Shown: piece after piece, positions 3,334 to 14,506 of the stretch
Numbering within the stretch: the stretch's first letter is position 1
Layout: each line of letters begins with the position of its first letter
Notes under the pieces: model-generated
Told to the model about the DNA's origin: nothing
The model's database searches: none
The model's input: only the letters and a program-made list of their open reading frames with translations
Position numbers and translations under genes: made by a program
DNA from: Caldimonas tepidiphila
Lineage (GTDB): Bacteria > Pseudomonadota > Gammaproteobacteria > Burkholderiales > Burkholderiaceae_C
NCBI RefSeq assembly: GCF_003569765.1
Contig: NZ_KZ983963.1
Coordinates: forward strand, 7,846 to 51,014
DNA length: 43,169 nt
Reading direction: 5' to 3'

Positions 3334-3337
<4 letters not shown>

Positions 3338-6300
3338 CCGGCCACGCCGGGCGGCACGCGCTCGGCGATCAGCTGCTGCATCGCCGCGATGTCGACCGGC
3401 TTCGTGAGGTGCGCATCGAAGCCCGCCGCCAGCGCGCGCCGCCTGTCCTCCTCGCTGCCCCAGCCGGTCAGCGCGACCAGCAGCGTGCCGGCGAAGGCCG
3501 GCTGCGCGCGCAGGCGCGCCGCCACCTCGTAGCCGTTCATCCCCGGCATCCCGATGTCGCAGAACACCACCGCCGGGGCGAACTCGCGCGCCGCCACCAG
3601 CGCGTCGGCGCCGTCGTGGGCCGTGCGGGTGTCGTGGCCGAGCAGGCCGAGCATCATCGCCAGCGTCTCGGCGGCGTCCACGTTGTCGTCCACCACCAGC
3701 ACCCGCGGCGCATCCGCCTGAGGCGCGGGGCCCGCGCCGCCCGGTCCTGCGGGCTCGGTCTCGGCGTCCGTGGCCAGCGGCAGCCGCACCGTGAAGGTCG
3801 CGCCGTGCCCGAGCCCCGCGCTCTCCACGCCGACGTCCCCCTGGTGCATCTCCACGAGGCGCTTCGCCAGCGACAGCCCGATGCCGAGGCCGCCCTGCGC
3901 CTGGGCGACGGGCTGCGGCACCTGGGTGAACATCTCGAACACGCGCGGCAGCATCTCCGGCGCGATGCCGATGCCGTTGTCCCGCACGCGGATCACGGCC
4001 TCGCCGCCCTCGCGCTCGGCCGACAGCTCGATGCGCCCGCCGCGCGGCGTGTACTTCGCTGCGTTGTTGAGCAGGTTGCCGAGCACCTGCGCCAGGCGGG
4101 TCGGGTCGCCGTCGAGGCACAGGGGCCTGCCGGGAAGCTGCAGCCTGAGCTCGTGGCCGCCGCCCTCGATGAAGGGCTGGCTCGCCTCGATGGCGCTGTC
4201 GAGGATCGAGCGCAGCGCCACCGCCTCCCGCCGCAGCTCGACCTTGCCGCGGCTGATGCGCGACACGTCGAGCAGGTCGTCGATCATGCGGACCATGTGC
4301 GCGATCTGGCGTTCCATGGTCTCGAGCGTGCGGGCCGCCCCCTGAGCCACGCCGGGCGTGAGGCGCAGGATCTGGATGCCGGTGCGGATCGGCGCGAGCG
4401 GGTTGCGCAGCTCGTGCGCGAGCGTGGCGAGGAACTCGTCCTTGCGGCGGTCGGCCTCCTGCAGCGCCTGCGCCGCTGCCTTCTCCGGCGTGCGGTCGCC
4501 GATCACGCCGAGCACCTGCTCGACCTCGCCGGACGGCCCGAACTCCGGCACGAACTGGCCCGCGAAGTGGCGGGGGCCGTCCGGGGTCTCGAAGCGGAAC
4601 TCGATGGTGCGGGGGCGGCCCTGCTCGAACACCGACCGCAGCGCCTCGTCCCAGAGGTCGCAGAGTTCCGCCGGCATGCCGAGCTCGCGGTTGGTCTTGC
4701 CGATGAAGGCCTCCGGCTTCAGGCCGGTCGCACGCTCGATGGCGCGGCTGACGAACAGGTGGCGCAGCCCGCGGTCGAAGCGCGAGAGGATCTCCGGCGT
4801 GTTGTCGGCAAGGGTGCGGAACTCGCGCTCGCGCCGGCCCAGCTCCTCCTCGGCGCGCTTGCGGTCGTGGATGTCGATGGAGGCGCCGAACCAGCGCACG
4901 ATGCGGTCGCTGCCCGGTTCGCGGTAGGGCTCGGCGCGCACCAGGAACCAGCGGTACTCGCCGCTGCAGGAGCGGACGCGGTGCTCGACCCGGAAGGTGT
5001 CGCCGGTGCGCCGCGCCTCGGCGAAGCGTTCGAGCGTGATCGCGACGTCGTCGGGGTGGATCGCCCGGGCGGCGATCTCCGCGGCGGTGGCCGAGGTGAT
5101 CGAGAGGCCCGTGTAGTCCGTCCACTGGCGGTTGACGAACTCGTTGCGGCCCTCGGCGTCGGTGATCCAGACGATCTGCGGCACCGCGTCGCTCATCAGC
5201 CGGAAGCGCGCCTCGCTCTCGCGCAGCGCCTCCTCCGCGCGACGGCGCTGGGTCAGGTCCAGCATCGAGCCGATCATGCGGTAGGCCTTGCCCGCGGCGT
5301 CGTGCCCGATGTAGCCGCGGTCGAGGAAGGTGGCGTAGCTGCCGTCGCTCTTGCGGAAGCGGTACTCGTCGCTCCAGCTGCAGCAGCCGTGCTCGATCGC
5401 CGCGTGGATGCCCCCGACCACGCGCTCGCGATCCTGCGGGTGGATGCGCGCGTACCAGCCCTCGATGCCGGGCCCGAGCTCCTCGACCGTGCAGCCGAAG
5501 TGGATCTTCACGGCCTCGTTCCAGTCGAGCCGGTCGGTCCGCAGGTCCCAGTCCCAGATCACGTCGTTGGTGGCGCGGTTGAGCAGCCGGTAGCGCTCCT
5601 CGCTCTGCCGCAGCGCCTGCTCGGCCTCCTTGCGCCTCGTGACGTCCAGCATCACCACGACGCCGCCGACGACGCGGCCGGCCTCGTCGCGCACCGGCGC
5701 GGCGTTGTTCAGCAGGAAGCGCCGCGGCCCGCCGTCGAAGGGCAGGCACTCGACCATCTCGTCGCGCACCGTCTCGCCCTGCAGCAGCGCGCGCGACATC
5801 GCCCATTCCCCGGCCTCGATGCGCCGCCCGGTGTCGGGCCAGTAGCCGGGCCATTCGCCGTACTGCTGCCAGCCCGGGGTGTCGGGAACCCCGCCCCAGA
5901 GCGCGCGGAAGGCGGCGTTCTCGCGGATCAGCCGGCCGTCCGCGTCGGCGACCGCCACCCCGGCCGGCAGCGCCTCGAGCACGGCGCGCAGGAGCGCCTC
6001 GCGCTGTGCCAGCGTGCGCTCGGCGCGCGCGCGTTCGACCGCGGCCCACAGCCGTTCGCAGGCCTGCTCGACCAGCGCCACCTCGGCCGGCGCCCACTCG
6101 CGCGGCTCGGGATGGTGAACGAAGAACATGGCGACCATGCGGCCCTGCTTCACGAGCGGCACGTCGAGGATCGCGCGCGTGCTGATGCCCTCGTAGGCAC
6201 GGAGCACGCCCGGGTGGCTGGTGCGCGGGTCGAGCCGGACGTCGGCGATCGGGGCCGAACGTCCCGCCTTCATGTCGGCCACGAAGTCGGGGCCGAAGTC

Positions 6301-7002
6301 GTCCATGCGCCAGGTGCCGGCGACCGAGCCGATGCGGCCGTCGTTCCAGTCGCGGTGGACGGTGACGTGCGTCTGCGTCTCGTCGATCTCGCCGTAGCCG
6401 ACCTGCGCCACGCCCAGGTGCGTGCCCAGCGCGGCGCCGGCCGCGTCCATCATCTCCTGCGGGTCGGCGAGTTCGCGCAGGCGCTCGTTGAGCGCGAGCA
6501 GGAAGCGGGAGTGCCGTTCCTGCCCGCTCAGCGCCACCTCGGTGCGCACCATCTCGTCGATGTCGGTCGCCGAGCCCGCCCACGACTCGATCGCGCCCGA
6601 GGCACCGCGCATCGGCACGGCGCGCACCAGGTGCCAGCGCCAGCGGCCGTCGTGGCGGCGCAGGCGCTGGCGCATCGTGCATTCGCTGCCGGCGTCGATC
6701 GCCTGCCGCCACTTCGCGCGGCTCGCGGCCCGGTCCTCGGGATGAACTGCCTGCAGCCAGCCGTCGCCGGCGAGCAGTGCGGGCGTCAGGCCGGTGTAGT
6801 GTGCGCAGGCCTCGCTCGACCAGGTGCGGGCGCCCCGCGCGTCGGCCTCGAACACCAGGCAGGGCAGCGCGTCGGCCAGGGCGCGGAATCGCGCCTCGGG
6901 GCATCCCTCGGGCGGCCTCGCGCCGATGCAAGGTCCGGGCGCGGCATCCGCGCGATCGCGTTGCGGCGACATCCGGAGCAGATCTGGGGGTTCGCCGCCC
7001 AT
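3334..7002 (-). CDS. multi-PAS/GAF hybrid histidine kinase with receiver
   Basis: A large soluble kinase of about 1222 residues. Approximate order: PAS 40-150, GAF 165-320, four further PAS/PAC modules between 335 and 835 (each beginning with a SEERYR, SEARFR or REREFR type linker), HisKA near 857 ([13 protein letters not shown]), HATPase_c near 965-1075 (LLNNAAKYTP, DNGIGIAP, GGLGIGLSLA) and a C-terminal receiver near 1100-1215 (CDIGMPGMNGY, TKPVD). The start is uncertain: ATG codons occur at 7050, 7002 and 6972 and none has a good ribosome site. A GATAAT -10-like box at 7033-7028 favours 7002 or 6972. The HisKA, HATPase and receiver are close relatives of those in the genes at 1229 and 39369. 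No transmembrane segment is present, so sensing should be cytoplasmic. Confidence 0.92.
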
Positions 7003-7027
7003 GGTGCACCCATGTGGAAAAAACGCG

Positions 7028-7056
7028 ATTATCCGGTGCGGAAGTGGCATTGCCCG
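7028..7056 (-). promoter_or_regulatory. weak promoter candidate for the multi-PAS kinase
   Basis: Reading the minus strand, GATAAT (7033-7028) differs at one base from the -10 consensus and sits in a locally AT-rich stretch. The hexamer 17 nt upstream is only a 3/6 match to TTGACA. Transcription from it would start near 7021, inside the longest reading frame, and would make the 7002 or 6972 ATG the true start. Confidence 0.3.
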
Positions 7057-8548: not shown

Positions 8549-10174
8549 TCAGCCGTCGTCGCGGCGCAGCCAGCGGTAGCCCCAGGGCTCCAGGTCGACG
8601 TGGTAGTGGCCGTCCTCCTCGACCTCCTCGCGGTGCTCGGCGAGCACGTCGTACACGCCGCGGGCATCGCTGATCGGCAGGGAGAAGCGCAGGCGCCGGT
8701 CCGCGAGGTTGTGGATCGCGAACACGGTGCGCCCGTCGAGGTCGCAGCGGTGCGCGAGCAGCTCGCGGTGGCCGGTGTCGATCCAGGTGCAGCAGCCGAG
8801 CCCGAACTCGGAGCTCTCCTTGCGCCGCCGGATCATGCGCTCCAGCCAGTTCAGCAGCGACTGCGGGTCGCGCCGCTGCGCCTCGACGTTGAGCGCCGGG
8901 TAGCCGTACTCGCCGTCGGCGATCGGCGGCAGCACGAGCTGCTCGCGCGGCGCGTGCGAGAAGCCGCCGTTGGGCCCGGCGCTCCACTGCATCGGCGTGC
9001 GCACGCTCTCGCGGTCCGGCAGCGACAGGTCGTCGCCCATGCCGATCTCGTCGCCGTAGCGCAGCACGGGCGTGCCGGGCAGCGTCAGCATCAGGCTGTG
9101 CGCGAGCTCGATGCGGCGGCGGTCGTTGCCGAGCATCGGCGCGAGGCGCCGGCGGATGCCGCGGCCGTAGAGCCGCATGCACTCCTCGGGGCCGAAGGCG
9201 CGGAACACCTCCTCGCGCTCGGCATCCGACAGGCGGCCGAGGTCGAGCTCGTCGTGGCTGCGCAGGAAGTGGTTCCACTGGCACCAGCGCGGCAGCGGCG
9301 GCAGCTCTGCGGCGGCGCGGCGGATCGGCGTGGCGTCCTGGCGCGCGAGCGCGAGGAACAGGTGCTGGTTGGTCCAGAAGTCGAAGGACATGTGGATCTT
9401 GTCGCCGTCGCCGAAGTAGTCCGGCACCTCCTCGGGCCGCAGGTTGGCCTCGGCCATCAGGCAGACGTCGCCGCACAGCGCCTGCACGTGCTGGCGCAGC
9501 TCGCGCAGGTAGGCGTGCGGGTTGCCGAGCCCCTCCTGCGGCGTGCCCTTGAACTCGATCAGGAAGGGCAGCGCATCGACGCGGAAGCCTGTGACGCCGA
9601 GCTGCAGCCAGAAGCCGGTGATCTTCTCGATCTCGCGGCGCACCGCCGGGTGCGTGATGTTCAGCTCGGCCTGGTGCTCGTAGAAGCGGTGGAAGTAGTA
9701 GGCGCGGGCCTTGCGGTCCCAGGTCCAGGTGGTCTGCTGCGGGCCGGGGAAGACCATGCCCTGGTGGGCGTCCTCGGGCTTCTTCTTCGACCAGACGTAC
9801 CAGTCTCGGTAGGGGGAGGCCGGGTCGCTGCGCGCCGCCTGGAACCAGGGATGGTCGATCGAGGTGTGGTTGACGACGAGGTCGATCATCACGCGGATGC
9901 CGCGCTCGCGCGCCCGGCGCGAGAACTCGACGAAGTCGCCGAGCGTGCCCAGGCGCGGGTCGATGCCGTAGTAGTCGGTGATGTCGTAGCCGTTGTCGCG
10001 CATCGGCGACGGGAAGAAGGGCTGCAGCCAGACGCAGTCGACGTTGAGCCCGTCGAGGTACTCGAGCCGGCCCGCGAGCCCCTCGAAGTCGCCGATGCCG
10101 TCGCCGTTGCCGTCGGCGAAGGTCTTCACGTCGAGGCAGTAGACGACGGCGTTCTTGTACCAGAGGTCAGCCAT
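8549..10174 (-). CDS. GH13 trehalose-synthase-like alpha-amylase family enzyme
   Basis: Encodes 541 residues of a GH13 TIM barrel close to trehalose synthase/maltose alpha-glucosyltransferase (GH13_16). Visible motifs: DGNGDGIGDFEGL near residue 21, the DLVVNHTS region I near 98, GFRVDA with nucleophile Asp200, MAEAN with acid/base Glu242 and RSHDELD with the third carboxylate Asp308. A beta-rich C-terminal domain follows from about 450. No signal peptide, so it acts in the cytoplasm on maltose, maltodextrin or glycogen-derived sugars. Its ATG overlaps the end of the debranching-enzyme frame by 8 nt, pointing to translational coupling: debranching releases linear glucans that this enzyme can convert. 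A plain alpha-glucosidase remains possible. Confidence 0.9.
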   Translation of the reverse strand: MADLWYKNAVVYCLDVKTFADGNGDGIGDFEGLAGRLEYLDGLNVDCVWLQPFFPSPMRDNGYDITDYYGIDPRLGTLGDFVEFSRRARERGIRVMIDLVVNHTSIDHPWFQAARSDPASPYRDWYVWSKKKPEDAHQGMVFPGPQQTTWTWDRKARAYYFHRFYEHQAELNITHPAVRREIEKITGFWLQLGVTGFRVDALPFLIEFKGTPQEGLGNPHAYLRELRQHVQALCGDVCLMAEANLRPEEVPDYFGDGDKIHMSFDFWTNQHLFLALARQDATPIRRAAAELPPLPRWCQWNHFLRSHDELDLGRLSDAEREEVFRAFGPEECMRLYGRGIRRRLAPMLGNDRRRIELAHSLMLTLPGTPVLRYGDEIGMGDDLSLPDRESVRTPMQWSAGPNGGFSHAPREQLVLPPIADGEYGYPALNVEAQRRDPQSLLNWLERMIRRRKESSEFGLGCCTWIDTGHRELLAHRCDLDGRTVFAIHNLADRRLRFSLPISDARGVYDVLAEHREEVEEDGHYHVDLEPWGYRWLRRDDG

Positions 10175-13100
10175 CGCGATCCCCGCCGCGCGTGGCCTGC
10201 CAGGCGCGCAGCAGCTCGGCCACGCTCCAGGCCTGCGCGATGCAGCCGCCGGCGCAGTGCGGCGGCTGCGCGTCGAAGACCTCGCTGACGCTGCCGAGCC
10301 CGTGCTCGGCGAGGTGCGCCGGCAGGGCCTGCAGCAGCGCGCGGGCGCGCTCGTCGCGGCCGTGCACGCGCAACCAGGCGTCGACGAAGTGGCCGAGCAG
10401 CCAGGGCCAGACCGTGCCCTGGTGGTAGGCGGCGTCGCGCTCGCGCAGCGAGCCCTCGTAGCGCGGGCGGTAGCCGGGCTCGTGCGGGGCGAGGGTGCGC
10501 AGCCCGAAGGGCGTGAGCAGGTGGCGCGCGACGGCGTCGAGCACCGCGCGCCGGTGCGCCGCGTCGAGCACCGGGTGCGTCAGCGACAGCGCGAACACCT
10601 GGTTGGGGCGCAGGCTCGCGTCGTCGCCGTCCGGGCCGTCGACCACGTCGAGCAGGTGGCCGCGCGCGGGCGACCAGAAGCGCGCCTCGAAGGAGGTCCG
10701 CACGCGCTCGGCGAGCGCGTCGTGCGCGTCGGCCCCCGGCGCGCCGAGCGCGCGGCCCCAGCCGGCCATCAGCCGCAGCGCGTTGTACCAGAGCGCCTGG
10801 ATCTCCACCGGCTTGCCGCGCCGCGGCGTGACGACCCAGTCGTCCACCTTGGCGTCCATCCAGGTGAGCTGCAGGCCCTCGGCCGCGGCGCGCACCAGGG
10901 CGTCCTGCGGGTCGACGCCGATGCCGAAGCGCGTGCCCTGGCGGTGGCGCTCGATCACGTCGGCGAGCACCGGGTAGAGCTCGGCGACGAGCGACAGGTC
11001 GCCCGAGTGCGCCACGTAGCGCTCGATCGCGTGGAAGTACCAGAAGGTCGCGTCGACGGTGTGGTAGAGCGCCTCGCGCTCGCCCTCGGGAAAGAGGTTG
11101 GGCAGCAGGCCGTCGCGGATGTAGCGGGCGAAGGTGCGCAGGATGCCGCGCGCCTCGGCGTGCCGCCCGGTGCACAGCGCCAGGCCCTCGAGCGCGATCA
11201 TCGTGTCGCGCCCCCAGTCGCCGAACCAGGGATAGCCCGCGATCACGGTGCGCGCGCGGCCCTGTCCCGTCTCGCGGCGGCCGGCCGGCTCGACGACGAA
11301 GGCATCGGCGGCGAGCACGAGGCGCCGCTCGGTCTCGTCGGCGCCCGCGAGCCCCTCGGCGGCGAGCAGTGCGGCGACGCGCGAACGCTCGGCCTCGAAC
11401 AGCTCCTCGGGGGAGGGCAGCGCCGCATCCCCCTCGCCGTCCTGGTCCCCGCACTGCGCGACGAAGGCCGCGTCGCGGCCCGGCGCCAGCGTCAGCCGCC
11501 ATTCGCCGGGGCTGTGCATGTGCTCGCGGTGCTCGTAGCCGCGCTCGCGCTCCACGCGCAGCAGCACGTCGCGCTCGAGCCGCGGCGCCTCCTCGAACGC
11601 CGCGTCCTGCGCCAGCACCTGCATCCGCACCGCGATGCCGGAGTCGGCGCGCCAGAGCCGCGCATCTCCGTCTGCAGCCGGTTCGAGCCGTCCGGGCGGG
11701 TGCTCGTCGAGGTGCAGCGGCGCGTCCTGGCGGCGCCCGCCGGCATAGACGCGCAGCCGCAGCCGGCAGGCGGGCCCGTCGAGCAGCCGCCAGCGCACGC
11801 ACACCGCGTTGCGGCCCTGCGGCATCAGCAGCGCGCGCTCGATGACGCGGCCGTCCACCTCGAAGGTCCACACCGGCGTCACGCCGTCGAGGCGGAACTC
11901 GCGCAGGTGCAGGTGCGCCTCGACCTCCGGCCGGCCGTCGCCGAGCTCCGCGCCGGCGAGCCGCACGCTGCCGCCACCGGCCTCGACGCAGTCGTCGAGC
12001 CGCGGCAGCGCGACGTGGCGGCCGCGCGGCGCGTCGAGGTTGGGCACGAGGATGCCGTGGTGGCGGCGCGTCGGCACGCCGAGCACGGTGCCCGAGGCGT
12101 AGCCCCCGAGGCCGTTGGTGACGAGCCATTCGCGCTCGCGCAGCGCGACTGCGTCGCCGCCGATCGTCCGGGGCAGCACCAGTTGGGGCGGCAGCATCGC
12201 TTCGACTTCCTCCTCCACGCGCCGACACGGCCGGCGGCGCCCCCGCGGCGGCGGCGGCTCGCGCGCCGCCCGGCGCGCTGCGGGGACGGCCGGGTTCGAG
12301 GCCTGCGCAGCAAGCCCCGCGCCCGGCGGCTCAGGCGCCGGCAGCAGGTTCAGCGGGATCTTCAGGTAGCTCACGCCGTTATCCTCGGGCGGCGGCAGCT
12401 GCCCGGCGCGCACGTTGACCTGGAGCGACGGTAGCAGCAGCACCGGCACCTCGAGCGCCGCGTCGCGGGCGCGGCGCATCGCGACGAACTGCGCCTCGTC
12501 GATGCCGTCGCGCACGTGGATGTTGGCGCGGCGCTGCTCGGCGACGCTCGTCTCCCAGCGCGGCCCGCGCCCGGCGGGCGGGTAGTCGTGGCAGACGAAG
12601 AGGCGCGTGTCGCCCGGCAGGTCGAGCAGCCGGCGGATCGAGCGGTGCAGCGTCTGCGCGTCGCCGCCGGGGAAGTCGGCGCGCGCGGTGCCGACGTCGG
12701 GCATGAAGAGCGTGTCGCCGACGAACACCGCGTCCCCGACGAGATAGGCCATGTCTGCCGGCGTGTGGCCCGGCACCCACAGCGCCCGTGCCTCGACGCT
12801 GCCGATGCGGAAGGTCTCGCCGTCGGCGAACAGGTGGTCGAACTGGCTGCCGTCGGACAGGAAGCCGGGCTCGAGGTTGTAGATCTTCCGGAAGATCTGC
12901 TGCACCTCGCGGATGCGCTCGCCGATCGCGATGCGCCCGCCGGCTTGCGCTTTGAGATGGTGCGCCGCAGAGAGGTGGTCGGCGTGGGCATGCGTCTCGA
13001 GGATCCATTCGAGCGCCAGGCCCTGCTCGCGCAGGTGAGCCAGCAGGCGGTCGGCCGAGTCGCTGCGGGTGCGGCCGGAGCGGGCGTCGTAGTCGAGCAC

Positions 13101-13205
13101 CGGGTCGACGACCGCGGCCTGCCGCGTCGCGGGGTCCGCCACGACGTAGCTGACGGTCGAGGTGGCGGGGTCGAAGAAGGGGCGGATCGTGATGCGAGGG
13201 TTCAT
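10167..13205 (-). CDS. fusion ORF: ETHE1-like MBL-fold hydrolase + glycogen debranching enzyme
   Basis: A single uninterrupted frame of 1012 codons joins two normally separate proteins. Residues 1-288 form a metallo-beta-lactamase-fold hydrolase like ETHE1/BlhA persulfide dioxygenases: THAHADH (His72, His74, Asp76, His77), His147 in VPGHTPAD, the GDTLFMPD segment and His206 in VCHDYPP. Residues 289-336 are a Pro/Ala/Arg-rich linker that looks like translated spacer. From Met337 the sequence is a complete GDE_N plus GDE_C amylo-alpha-1,6-glucosidase (EWLVTNGLGGYASG near 365; YPWFGDWGRDTMIALEG near 660; about 676 residues). The ATG at 13205 has an AGGAGG site 6 nt upstream. Met337 has its own strong ribosome site, so a free debranching enzyme is probably also made from 12197. 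A lost stop codon or sequencing indel is the alternative. Confidence 0.85.
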   Translation of the reverse strand: MNPRITIRPFFDPATSTVSYVVADPATRQAAVVDPVLDYDARSGRTRSDSADRLLAHLREQGLALEWILETHAHADHLSAAHHLKAQAGGRIAIGERIREVQQIFRKIYNLEPGFLSDGSQFDHLFADGETFRIGSVEARALWVPGHTPADMAYLVGDAVFVGDTLFMPDVGTARADFPGGDAQTLHRSIRRLLDLPGDTRLFVCHDYPPAGRGPRWETSVAEQRRANIHVRDGIDEAQFVAMRRARDAALEVPVLLLPSLQVNVRAGQLPPPEDNGVSYLKIPLNLLPAPEPPGAGLAAQASNPAVPAARRAAREPPPPRGRRRPCRRVEEEVEAMLPPQLVLPRTIGGDAVALREREWLVTNGLGGYASGTVLGVPTRRHHGILVPNLDAPRGRHVALPRLDDCVEAGGGSVRLAGAELGDGRPEVEAHLHLREFRLDGVTPVWTFEVDGRVIERALLMPQGRNAVCVRWRLLDGPACRLRLRVYAGGRRQDAPLHLDEHPPGRLEPAADGDARLWRADSGIAVRMQVLAQDAAFEEAPRLERDVLLRVERERGYEHREHMHSPGEWRLTLAPGRDAAFVAQCGDQDGEGDAALPSPEELFEAERSRVAALLAAEGLAGADETERRLVLAADAFVVEPAGRRETGQGRARTVIAGYPWFGDWGRDTMIALEGLALCTGRHAEARGILRTFARYIRDGLLPNLFPEGEREALYHTVDATFWYFHAIERYVAHSGDLSLVAELYPVLADVIERHRQGTRFGIGVDPQDALVRAAAEGLQLTWMDAKVDDWVVTPRRGKPVEIQALWYNALRLMAGWGRALGAPGADAHDALAERVRTSFEARFWSPARGHLLDVVDGPDGDDASLRPNQVFALSLTHPVLDAAHRRAVLDAVARHLLTPFGLRTLAPHEPGYRPRYEGSLRERDAAYHQGTVWPWLLGHFVDAWLRVHGRDERARALLQALPAHLAEHGLGSVSEVFDAQPPHCAGGCIAQAWSVAELLRAWQATRGGDRDG
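12197..12216 (-). promoter_or_regulatory. internal Shine-Dalgarno and start for the debranching-enzyme part
   Basis: On the minus strand GGAGGAGGA (12216-12208) lies 10 nt before an in-frame ATG at 12197. That ATG opens the conserved MLPPQLVLPR start of the debranching domain. A start here gives a 676-residue enzyme of normal length. The site was evidently a gene start before the upstream frame became continuous. Confidence 0.7.
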
Positions 13206-13229: not shown

Positions 13230-13258
13230 TTGACGAACGATCTACGAGAAAATAATAT
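13230..13258 (+). promoter_or_regulatory. promoter of the BigR-like operon
   Basis: TTGACG (13230-13235), a 17-nt spacer and TAATAT (13253-13258). Predicted transcription start is near 13265, giving a leader of about 35 nt before the ATG at 13299. The -10 box lies inside the palindrome at 13251-13276. Confidence 0.6.
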
Positions 13259-13276
13259 ATCAACAGATATATTGTT
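13251..13276. promoter_or_regulatory. AT-rich palindromic operator between divergent operons
   Basis: AATATATC (13254-13261), spacer AACA, GATATATT (13266-13273): a perfect 8-bp inverted repeat. Two further pairs (13251/13276 and 13252/13275) extend it after one mismatch. It is the most AT-rich stretch of this very GC-rich neighbourhood and overlaps both predicted -10 boxes. The adjacent ArsR-family gene makes it the likely binding site; as I recall, BigR binds an AT-rich palindrome covering its own -10 region. Confidence 0.75.
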
Positions 13277-13281
13277 GTCGA
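13252..13281 (-). promoter_or_regulatory. divergent promoter of the MBL hydrolase/debranching operon
   Basis: On the minus strand TCGACA (13281-13276), an 18-nt spacer and TATTAT (13257-13252, 5/6 match to TATAAT). The spacer and -10 are covered by the same palindrome as the plus-strand -10. Predicted leader is about 40 nt before the ATG at 13205. Confidence 0.5.
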
Positions 13282-13298: not shown

Positions 13299-13628
13299 AT
13301 GAACGACCCCTCCCCCGAGCTCGATCCGCAGCGCCTGCGCGGCGCGGCCGCGCAGGCGGCCGCGACGCTCAGGCTGCTGGCCAACGAGGACCGGCTGCTG
13401 CTGCTGTGCCAGCTCTCGCAGGGCGAGTGCAGCGTCGGCGAGCTCGAGGAGCAGCTCGGCATACGCCAGCCGACGCTGTCGCAGCAGCTCGGCGTGCTGC
13501 GCAACGAGGGCGTGGTCGCGACGCGCCGCGAGGGCAAGTACGTCCACTACCGCATCGCCGACCCGGCGCTGCTCGAGATCCTGGCGGTGCTCTACCGCCT
13601 CTACTGTCCCCGGGAGGACGCGCGATGA
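13299..13628 (+). CDS. bigR: ArsR-family repressor, BigR/SqrR-like
   Basis: Encodes 109 residues from the ATG at 13299, with AAGGA at 13286-13290 eight nt upstream; the in-frame ATG at 13281 has no ribosome site. It is a winged-helix ArsR/SmtB protein: [16 protein letters not shown] helix, then [18 protein letters not shown] recognition region and the [10 protein letters not shown] wing. Cys37 and Cys103 are 66 residues apart, the same spacing as the sulfide/persulfide-sensing pair of SqrR (Cys41/Cys107) and BigR (Cys42/Cys108); Cys44 is extra. The metal-site motif ELCVCDL of ArsR/SmtB is absent. It probably represses both divergent operons until the cysteines are oxidised or bridged by sulfur. 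Its TGA overlaps the ATG of the next gene (ATGA). Confidence 0.9.
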
Positions 13629-14059
13629 GGATCGACTGGAACGCCTTCGCGCCGGCCGAGGCGCTGCTCGGCGGCGTGCTGATCGGGCTGGCGGCGGCGA
13701 TGTTCGTGCTGCTCAACGGCCGCATCGCCGGCATCAGCGGCGTGCTCGGCGGCCTGCTGCGCCCCGCGCGCGGCGACCTGGGCTGGCGCCTCGCCTTCGT
13801 CGCCGGCCTGCTCGCGGCGCCGCTCGCCTGGGCGCTGTTCTGGCCGCTGCCGCCGGTGCGGGTGGAGGCCGGCACCGTGCTGCTGGCGGCAGCGGGGCTG
13901 CTGGTCGGCGTCGGCACGCGCTACGGCGCGGGCTGCACCAGCGGGCACGGCGTGTGCGGCCTGTCGCGGCTGTCGCCGCGTTCGCTGCTCGCCACCGTCG
14001 TGTTCATGGCCGCGGGCTTCGCGACGGTGTACCTCGTGCGCCACCTGCTGCAACCCTGA
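13625..14059 (+). CDS. YeeE/YedE-family membrane protein (first half-transporter)
   Basis: Encodes 144 residues with about four hydrophobic segments (near 12-32, 55-72, 80-98 and 118-138). It carries the YeeE/YedE signature [12 protein letters not shown] near residues 101-112, whose cysteine is a conserved sulfur-handling residue in the TsuA thiosulfate-transporter family. The protein is half-sized, as expected when the second half is a separate DUF6691 gene, which follows 18 nt later. It starts at the ATGA junction with the repressor and has GGGAGG upstream within that gene. The likely role is movement of a sulfur species across the inner membrane, under control of the BigR-like protein. Confidence 0.9.
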
Positions 14060-14077: not shown

Positions 14078-14506
14078 ATGCTGCTGCTCACCTCGTTTCT
14101 CTCGGGCCTGGTCTTCGGCCTCGGGCTGCTGCTGTCGGGCATGGCGAACCCCGCCAAGGTGCTCGGCTTCCTCGACCTCGCCGGCGCCTGGGACCCCTCG
14201 CTCGCCTTCGTGATGGCCGGGGCCGTCGGTGTCGGGCTCGTCGCCTTCGCGCTGGCGCGCCGGCGCACCCGCTCGCTGCTCGGCGCCGCGATGAGGCTGC
14301 CCGACGCGCGCCGCATCGACCGGCGCCTCGTGGGCGGCAGCCTGCTGTTCGGCATCGGCTGGGGCCTCGCCGGCTTCTGCCCGGGCCCGGGGCTGGTGGC
14401 GCTGGGCATGGGGGTGCCCGGCGCCGCGGTCTTCGTGCTCGCGATGCTCGCCGGCATGGCGCTGCACGAACTGCTGGAGCGCCGCGGCGCGGCGGCGGCG
14501 CGATGA
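14078..14506 (+). CDS. DUF6691/YeeE-family membrane protein (second half-transporter)
   Basis: Encodes 142 residues from the ATG at 14078 with AAGGAGAG about 10 nt upstream. Hydrophobic segments lie near residues 5-22, 42-60, 86-104 and 112-130. The GWGLAGFCPGPGL motif near residues 94-106 holds the conserved cysteine of the second YeeE/YedE half. Together with the preceding gene it should rebuild a full YeeE/YedE unit, as is usual for BigR-controlled operons. Its TGA overlaps the ATG of the next gene by 4 nt. Confidence 0.88.
   Translation: MLLLTSFLSGLVFGLGLLLSGMANPAKVLGFLDLAGAWDPSLAFVMAGAVGVGLVAFALARRRTRSLLGAAMRLPDARRIDRRLVGGSLLFGIGWGLAGFCPGPGLVALGMGVPGAAVFVLAMLAGMALHELLERRGAAAAR

Follow-up and report, generated by a model that had tools for sequence, protein, structure and literature searches.

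Does a reading frame that runs from a persulfide enzyme straight into a glycogen enzyme encode a bifunctional protein maintained by selection, or is it a by-product of two genes that came to lie head to tail? In the window, by which we mean the whole 43,169-nucleotide stretch of DNA analyzed here, positions 13205-10167 of the minus strand form a single uninterrupted frame of 1012 codons that begins with ATG and has no in-frame stop until the TGA at 10169-10167. A persulfide dioxygenase (PDO) of the MBL fold comes first, followed by a 48-residue linker and an archaeal-type glycogen debranching enzyme (GDE) (Table 1). The original prediction described one frame holding a complete MBL-fold hydrolase and a complete GDE_N/GDE_C enzyme, and the Pfam, NCBIfam and PDB matches agree with this. 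The fused ORF is present once in the 5.47 Mb genome, a draft assembly of 178 contigs, and its PDO and GDE are the only copy of either enzyme type there. The sole other match to the fused protein in the genome at E <= 0.001 is 37% identical over residues 52-235 and was taken for a glyoxalase II-like gene.

Table 1. Features of the fused frame and its surroundings (positions are those of the window)
Feature	Position	Strand	Evidence or remark
TreS-like alpha-amylase family protein	8549..10174	-	8-nt overlap with the end of the GDE
Glycogen debranching enzyme (GDE_N + GDE_C, archaeal type), residues 337-1012 plus stop	10167..12197	-	Pfam, NCBIfam, alignment
Shine-Dalgarno-like stretch GTGGAGGAGGAAGTCGAAGCG ahead of Met337	12198..12218	-	sequence, anti-SD pairing
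48-residue linker (residues 289-336), probably former spacer	12198..12341	-	composition, tblastn, alignments
Persulfide dioxygenase (MBL fold, ETHE1/Blh-SDO type), residues 1-288	12342..13205	-	Pfam, NCBIfam, PDB matches, alignment
AT-rich inverted repeat (14-nt arms, 86%, 4 nt apart) over promoter-like PDO site	13248..13279	.	repeat and promoter search
ArsR-family regulator, BigR/SqrR-like, divergent from PDO gene	13299..13628	+	profile search, alignment
YeeE-type half-transporter	13625..14059	+	Pfam Sulf_transp 26.6 bits, slightly below cut-off 27
DUF6691 protein, second YeeE-like half	14078..14506	+	Pfam

By sequence, the first 288 residues are a predicted complete protein of the persulfide dioxygenase type. 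Pfam Lactamase_B was assigned to residues 16-206 of the fused protein, and the dioxygenase half of the NCBIfam Blh model (NF040641; profile 141-423 of 423) aligned to residues 4-288. Two PDB chains match this part nearly end to end. The first, 4ysk (294 aa), bears the record title 'Beta-lactamase domain protein' and is presumably the persulfide dioxygenase of Pseudomonas putida; its residues 8-294 align to residues 6-288 (E 4.3e-116), so that its last residue falls where the linker begins. The second, 9g8t, aligns by residues 6-288 of its 296 to residues 7-288 (E 2.1e-117) and ends 8 residues later, and human ETHE1 (4chl) aligns to residues 5-209 (E 2.4e-18). The motifs HxHxDH (72-77), PGHT (145-148), GD (163-164) and CHDY (205-208) are invariant in a 14-row PDO alignment, in which the Thr following GD occurs in 13 rows; we take these motifs, including GD(T), to be the metal ligands of the PDO site. 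The ETHE1-like assignment made earlier therefore stands as an MBL enzyme of the ETHE1/PDO type, with the term 'sulfur hydrolase' refined to persulfide dioxygenase.

The second half is equally well delimited. Pfam GDE_N covers residues 358-578 (profile 1-217 of 219; score 174.8, cut-off 27) and GDE_C residues 634-1000 (profile 4-367 of 367; score 431.2, cut-off 21), while TIGR01561 gde_arch reaches 354.6 bits, slightly below its cut-off of 364.15. Set beside the archaeal-type GDE/amylo-alpha-1,6-glucosidase (PF12439 + PF06202; TIGR01561), the window protein has both domains complete and adds 336 residues at the N terminus. GlgX and GlgA score above their family cut-offs elsewhere in the genome, about 1.5 kb apart on contig C1. 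Since GlgX is also present, the GDE is probably dispensable, and its fusion to another enzyme would therefore be tolerated.

A frame of this length is not surprising by itself. Four of the 12 other GDE loci in the family occupy stop-to-stop frames longer than 1000 codons (1026, 1074, 1100 and 1313), with no PDO in the upstream bases examined for these four, and frame 0 of the linker remained open in 83% of 5000 dinucleotide shuffles. The idea that the 1012-codon frame is remarkable in its own right was rejected on these grounds. An open frame per se says little; chance does not account for two complete enzymes in one such frame. An AlphaFold model of the fused protein, built from a 17-row alignment, has a middling mean pLDDT of 68.6. 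Its low-confidence stretch, residues 250-350, is weak evidence for a loose linker and says little about the linker as such, because the dip also spans the conserved end of the PDO.

The linker has the makeup of a translated spacer, as had been proposed. Its 144 nt are 85% GC and encode a peptide rich in Pro, Ala and Arg. Second-position GC amounts to 0.75 across the linker's 48 codons, compared with a maximum of 0.67 among 868 sliding 48-codon blocks of the remaining ORF; blocks of 16 codons are noisier in this measure, and one coding block of that size likewise hits 0.75. Because some whole-protein matches started inside the linker, it was also searched alone by tblastn, and nothing better than E = 1.0 was found in 168 loci. 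No Pfam or NCBIfam stretch lies over it at E <= 0.001, and together these two results led us to reject a conserved domain in this region. As the spacer is open in most shuffles and matches nothing in relatives, an open linker needs no selection. Allowing a one-in-three chance that the GDE shares the frame, we estimate that about one spacer in four of this kind would fuse the two genes after loss of the first stops.

Where the PDO normally ends can be read from its relatives. We followed 13 of them, from three genera of the same family, past their ends, and all 13 stop 0-11 codons beyond the equivalent of residue 288. Seven (L085-L089, L092 and L153) have a stop at the codon right after the Leu288 equivalent, and six carry C-terminal run-on tails of 11 (L148, L149), 7 (L084, L091), 6 (L154) or 4 (L150) residues. 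A stop near 12340 in relatives, for which the original prediction proposed looking, was thus found: directly after residue 288 in the first group and after 4-11 more residues in the second. That prediction had also supposed a recent loss of the stop codon. The stop is indeed absent here, but its loss is not peculiar to this genome, as the three closest relatives (L148, L149 and L084, at 73, 72 and 71.5% identity) all lack the first stop as well. The next two in order of identity are L085 (69%), with the first stop, and L150 (68%), without it. Judged from these sequences, loss of the first PDO stop is common among relatives and not new here. The six tailed relatives also constitute a small natural series of C-terminal run-ons.

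The start of the GDE is marked just as clearly. Its two closest free counterparts, both from the same family (L107, 70% identical; L108, 69%), begin with MLPT opposite MLPP at Met337 and have in-frame stops farther upstream of that start. Given these starts and the ends of the PDO relatives, residues 289-336 are most simply an old spacer plus a run-on tail. Directly ahead of Met337 lies a Shine-Dalgarno (SD)-like stretch, in which GGAGGAGGA ends 10 nt before the ATG. For the 22 nt preceding Met337, the pairing energy with the anti-SD is -12.1 kcal/mol. Across the ORF, 2 of 600 windows reach this value, in a background that contains the site itself. This bears out the strong site claimed at this position. 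This SD is stronger than that of the PDO (-10.3 kcal/mol) and than those of all nine free GDEs scored (+1.2 to -7.7 kcal/mol, with their starts chosen by script). Its unusual strength hints at some tuning of the junction, or at chance. On this sequence evidence, a second translation start at Met337 is likely.

We then considered how widespread the join is. Matches to the GDE at E <= 1e-60 were obtained in 13 of 399 family, 15 of 399 order and 18 of 369 class genomes, all of them samples of larger groups; each count takes in the source genome, and the distinct GDE-bearing genomes number 44. A PDO lies upstream of the GDE in one of these 44, the source genome, and in none of 80 genome_contigs loci, the best 80 among the matches listed. 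Near the genome_contigs GDEs listed, the lone MBL match (L014, 28% identical) lies about 4 kb downstream of the GDE. Seven of the 124 loci (one order, one class and five genome_contigs) have fewer than 900 upstream bases and are weak negatives. None of 339 matching plasmid records covers 80% of the fused protein in one place. A wider family of PDO-GDE fusions is unsupported by these counts. The two enzymes had been described as known only as separate proteins, and so they are in the relatives seen, including four (G001, G321, G086 and G190) that have both at separate places. Neither a second genome of the species nor another genome with the join was found in the samples searched, and the literature searched for both enzymes together yielded no published work on such a fusion. 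As far as these searches go, PDO-GDE is a new domain combination of known enzymes.

Upstream of the PDO, the locus resembles a sulfide-response unit. The intergenic region between the PDO and the divergent ArsR-family gene contains three promoter-like sites where 0.0 are expected, and we propose the AT-rich inverted repeat as a candidate operator of the ArsR-family repressor; similar AT-rich sequence is visible by eye in G005 and G008. The regulator scores 99.4 bits against NF040642, under the cut-off of 155. It has Cys residues in ECSVGEL and LYCPRED that, in our reading of the sequence, would correspond to Cys42 and Cys108 of BigR. The DUF6691 protein in Table 1 is counted here as a YeeE-type protein. 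A divergent ArsR gene with two YeeE-type genes stands beside the PDO in 7 of the 13 relatives (L085-L088 and L148-L150), as it does in the window. No such set was found even within 19 kb of the PDO in L084, L089, L091 and L092, or in the shorter flank of L153, and L154 has an ArsR match only (47%). In the bigR operon, BigR binds the -10 region and is inactivated by H2S or polysulfides (PMC5823870). In L089, the frame just downstream of the PDO opens, by eye, like a sulfide:quinone oxidoreductase (HEVLIVGGGAAGIATAASLL).

The reading we favor, and hold to be probable, is that two ordinary modules met head to tail and the boundary between them became translatable, with the fusion being neutral or a by-product rather than a selected bifunctional enzyme. 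One module would be the BigR/SqrR-like unit, consisting of the divergent ArsR-YeeE-YeeE genes plus the PDO, and the other the GDE with the TreS-like gene. Among the genomes sampled, that pair lies behind a PDO on the same strand only in the source genome. The PDO gene would have lost its usual stop, as did its three closest relatives, where a new stop follows within 11 codons; here the GC-rich spacer offers no stop in frame, which leaves the one that ends the GDE as the next. Since other genomes have lost the first stop too, the decisive event would have been the placement of the GDE and TreS-like pair directly downstream of the PDO. Translation begun at 13205 would yield a PDO-linker-GDE chain of about 110 kDa, and initiation at Met337 would yield free GDE and carry on into the overlapping TreS-like gene. 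Sulfide or polysulfide would induce the whole unit by way of the BigR/SqrR-like repressor. We infer that the products are a PDO-GDE fusion plus free GDE, both under a sulfide-responsive promoter, and both predicted activities probably survive in the fusion.

A variant in which the products are mainly separate is unlikely. It supposes that the fused frame is rarely translated, or that the chain is cut in the linker, leaving in effect a PDO that is normal apart from its ragged end, and a normal GDE started at Met337. The strong SD at Met337 fits such an outcome, as does the Arg-rich linker, which from its sequence may be cleavable by proteases; but nothing in the sequence stops an in-frame ribosome before the TGA at the end of the GDE.

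We consider it very unlikely that the fusion is a selected bifunctional enzyme, tying persulfide oxidation to glycogen debranching and, for example, feeding sugar-derived reductant or trehalose precursors under sulfide stress. Residues conserved in relatives are kept in both the PDO and GDE parts, and upstream of the joint unit lie a BigR-like gene and a promoter-like site that carries an inverted repeat. PDO-type domains with a second domain are also known. In BpPRF (5ve3), presumably a rhodanese fusion, and in the beta-lactamase/rhodanese protein 3tp9, an ETHE1-like domain shares a chain with a rhodanese of sulfur metabolism, whereas the partner in the window is a glycogen enzyme. Blh, the DUF442-ETHE1 sulfur transferase/dioxygenase of the bigR operon (PMC5823870), shares with the window protein its dioxygenase half and an adjoining BigR-like gene; the window protein lacks the DUF442 half and scores 410.9 bits where NF040641 requires 625, and its extra domain is C-terminal and not a sulfur enzyme. 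Against selection for joint use, the fusion is confined to one genome among those sampled, a search of 168 loci gave no relative of the linker, whose base makeup differs from that of the remaining ORF, and GlgX is present besides. We know of no chemistry that links the substrates of PDO and GDE. A young but working PDO-GDE enzyme, with its internal start still active, that acts under a sulfide-sensing repressor with the TreS-like enzyme to couple sulfide stress to storage-glucan use, has a very small chance of being correct, and nothing in our analysis shows selection for bifunctional use.

The least probable account is a sequencing or assembly error, in which a base missing right after the PDO conceals a normal stop and the genes are actually separate. 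A TGA one frame off at codon 291 (nt 872 of the ORF) would end the PDO two or three residues past Leu288, much as in relatives, so a base missing within about 11 nt could fake the fusion in this draft assembly. Only the roughly 11 nt that separate the conserved KIPLN from codon 291 could hold such an error, and this short stretch contains no homopolymer longer than two. Past that TGA, the first stop in frame 1 comes no earlier than codon 442, and frame 2 stays open through codon 460, where the listed stretch ends. An indel at any other point of the linker would therefore let the PDO frame run on past the start of the GDE; this narrows an indel, as an explanation, to the start of the linker. 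A single false substitution could have the same effect, but such errors are rare. The fusion is probably real at the DNA level.

If the frame is confirmed, the locus neatly illustrates how a gene fusion can arise in bacteria: modules come to adjoin, a stop shifts, translation passes through a GC-rich spacer, and the start downstream survives, so that nothing is lost by fusing. In very GC-rich genomes, an open junction between domains is weak evidence of a functional fusion, which matters where functional links between proteins are inferred from fused genes.

The downstream module is itself patchy. The TreS-like protein scores 622.8 bits against treS_nterm, below the cut-off of 678.35. Among the 12 other family GDE loci, a TreS-like gene directly follows the GDE in three (G256, G086 and G001) and precedes it in one (G252); none was seen at the remaining eight, mostly with 1.5 kb examined on each side. 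Near the TreS-like gene, positions 3334-7050 of the minus strand encode a hybrid histidine kinase of 1238 aa that has several PAS domains, one GAF domain and one receiver domain.
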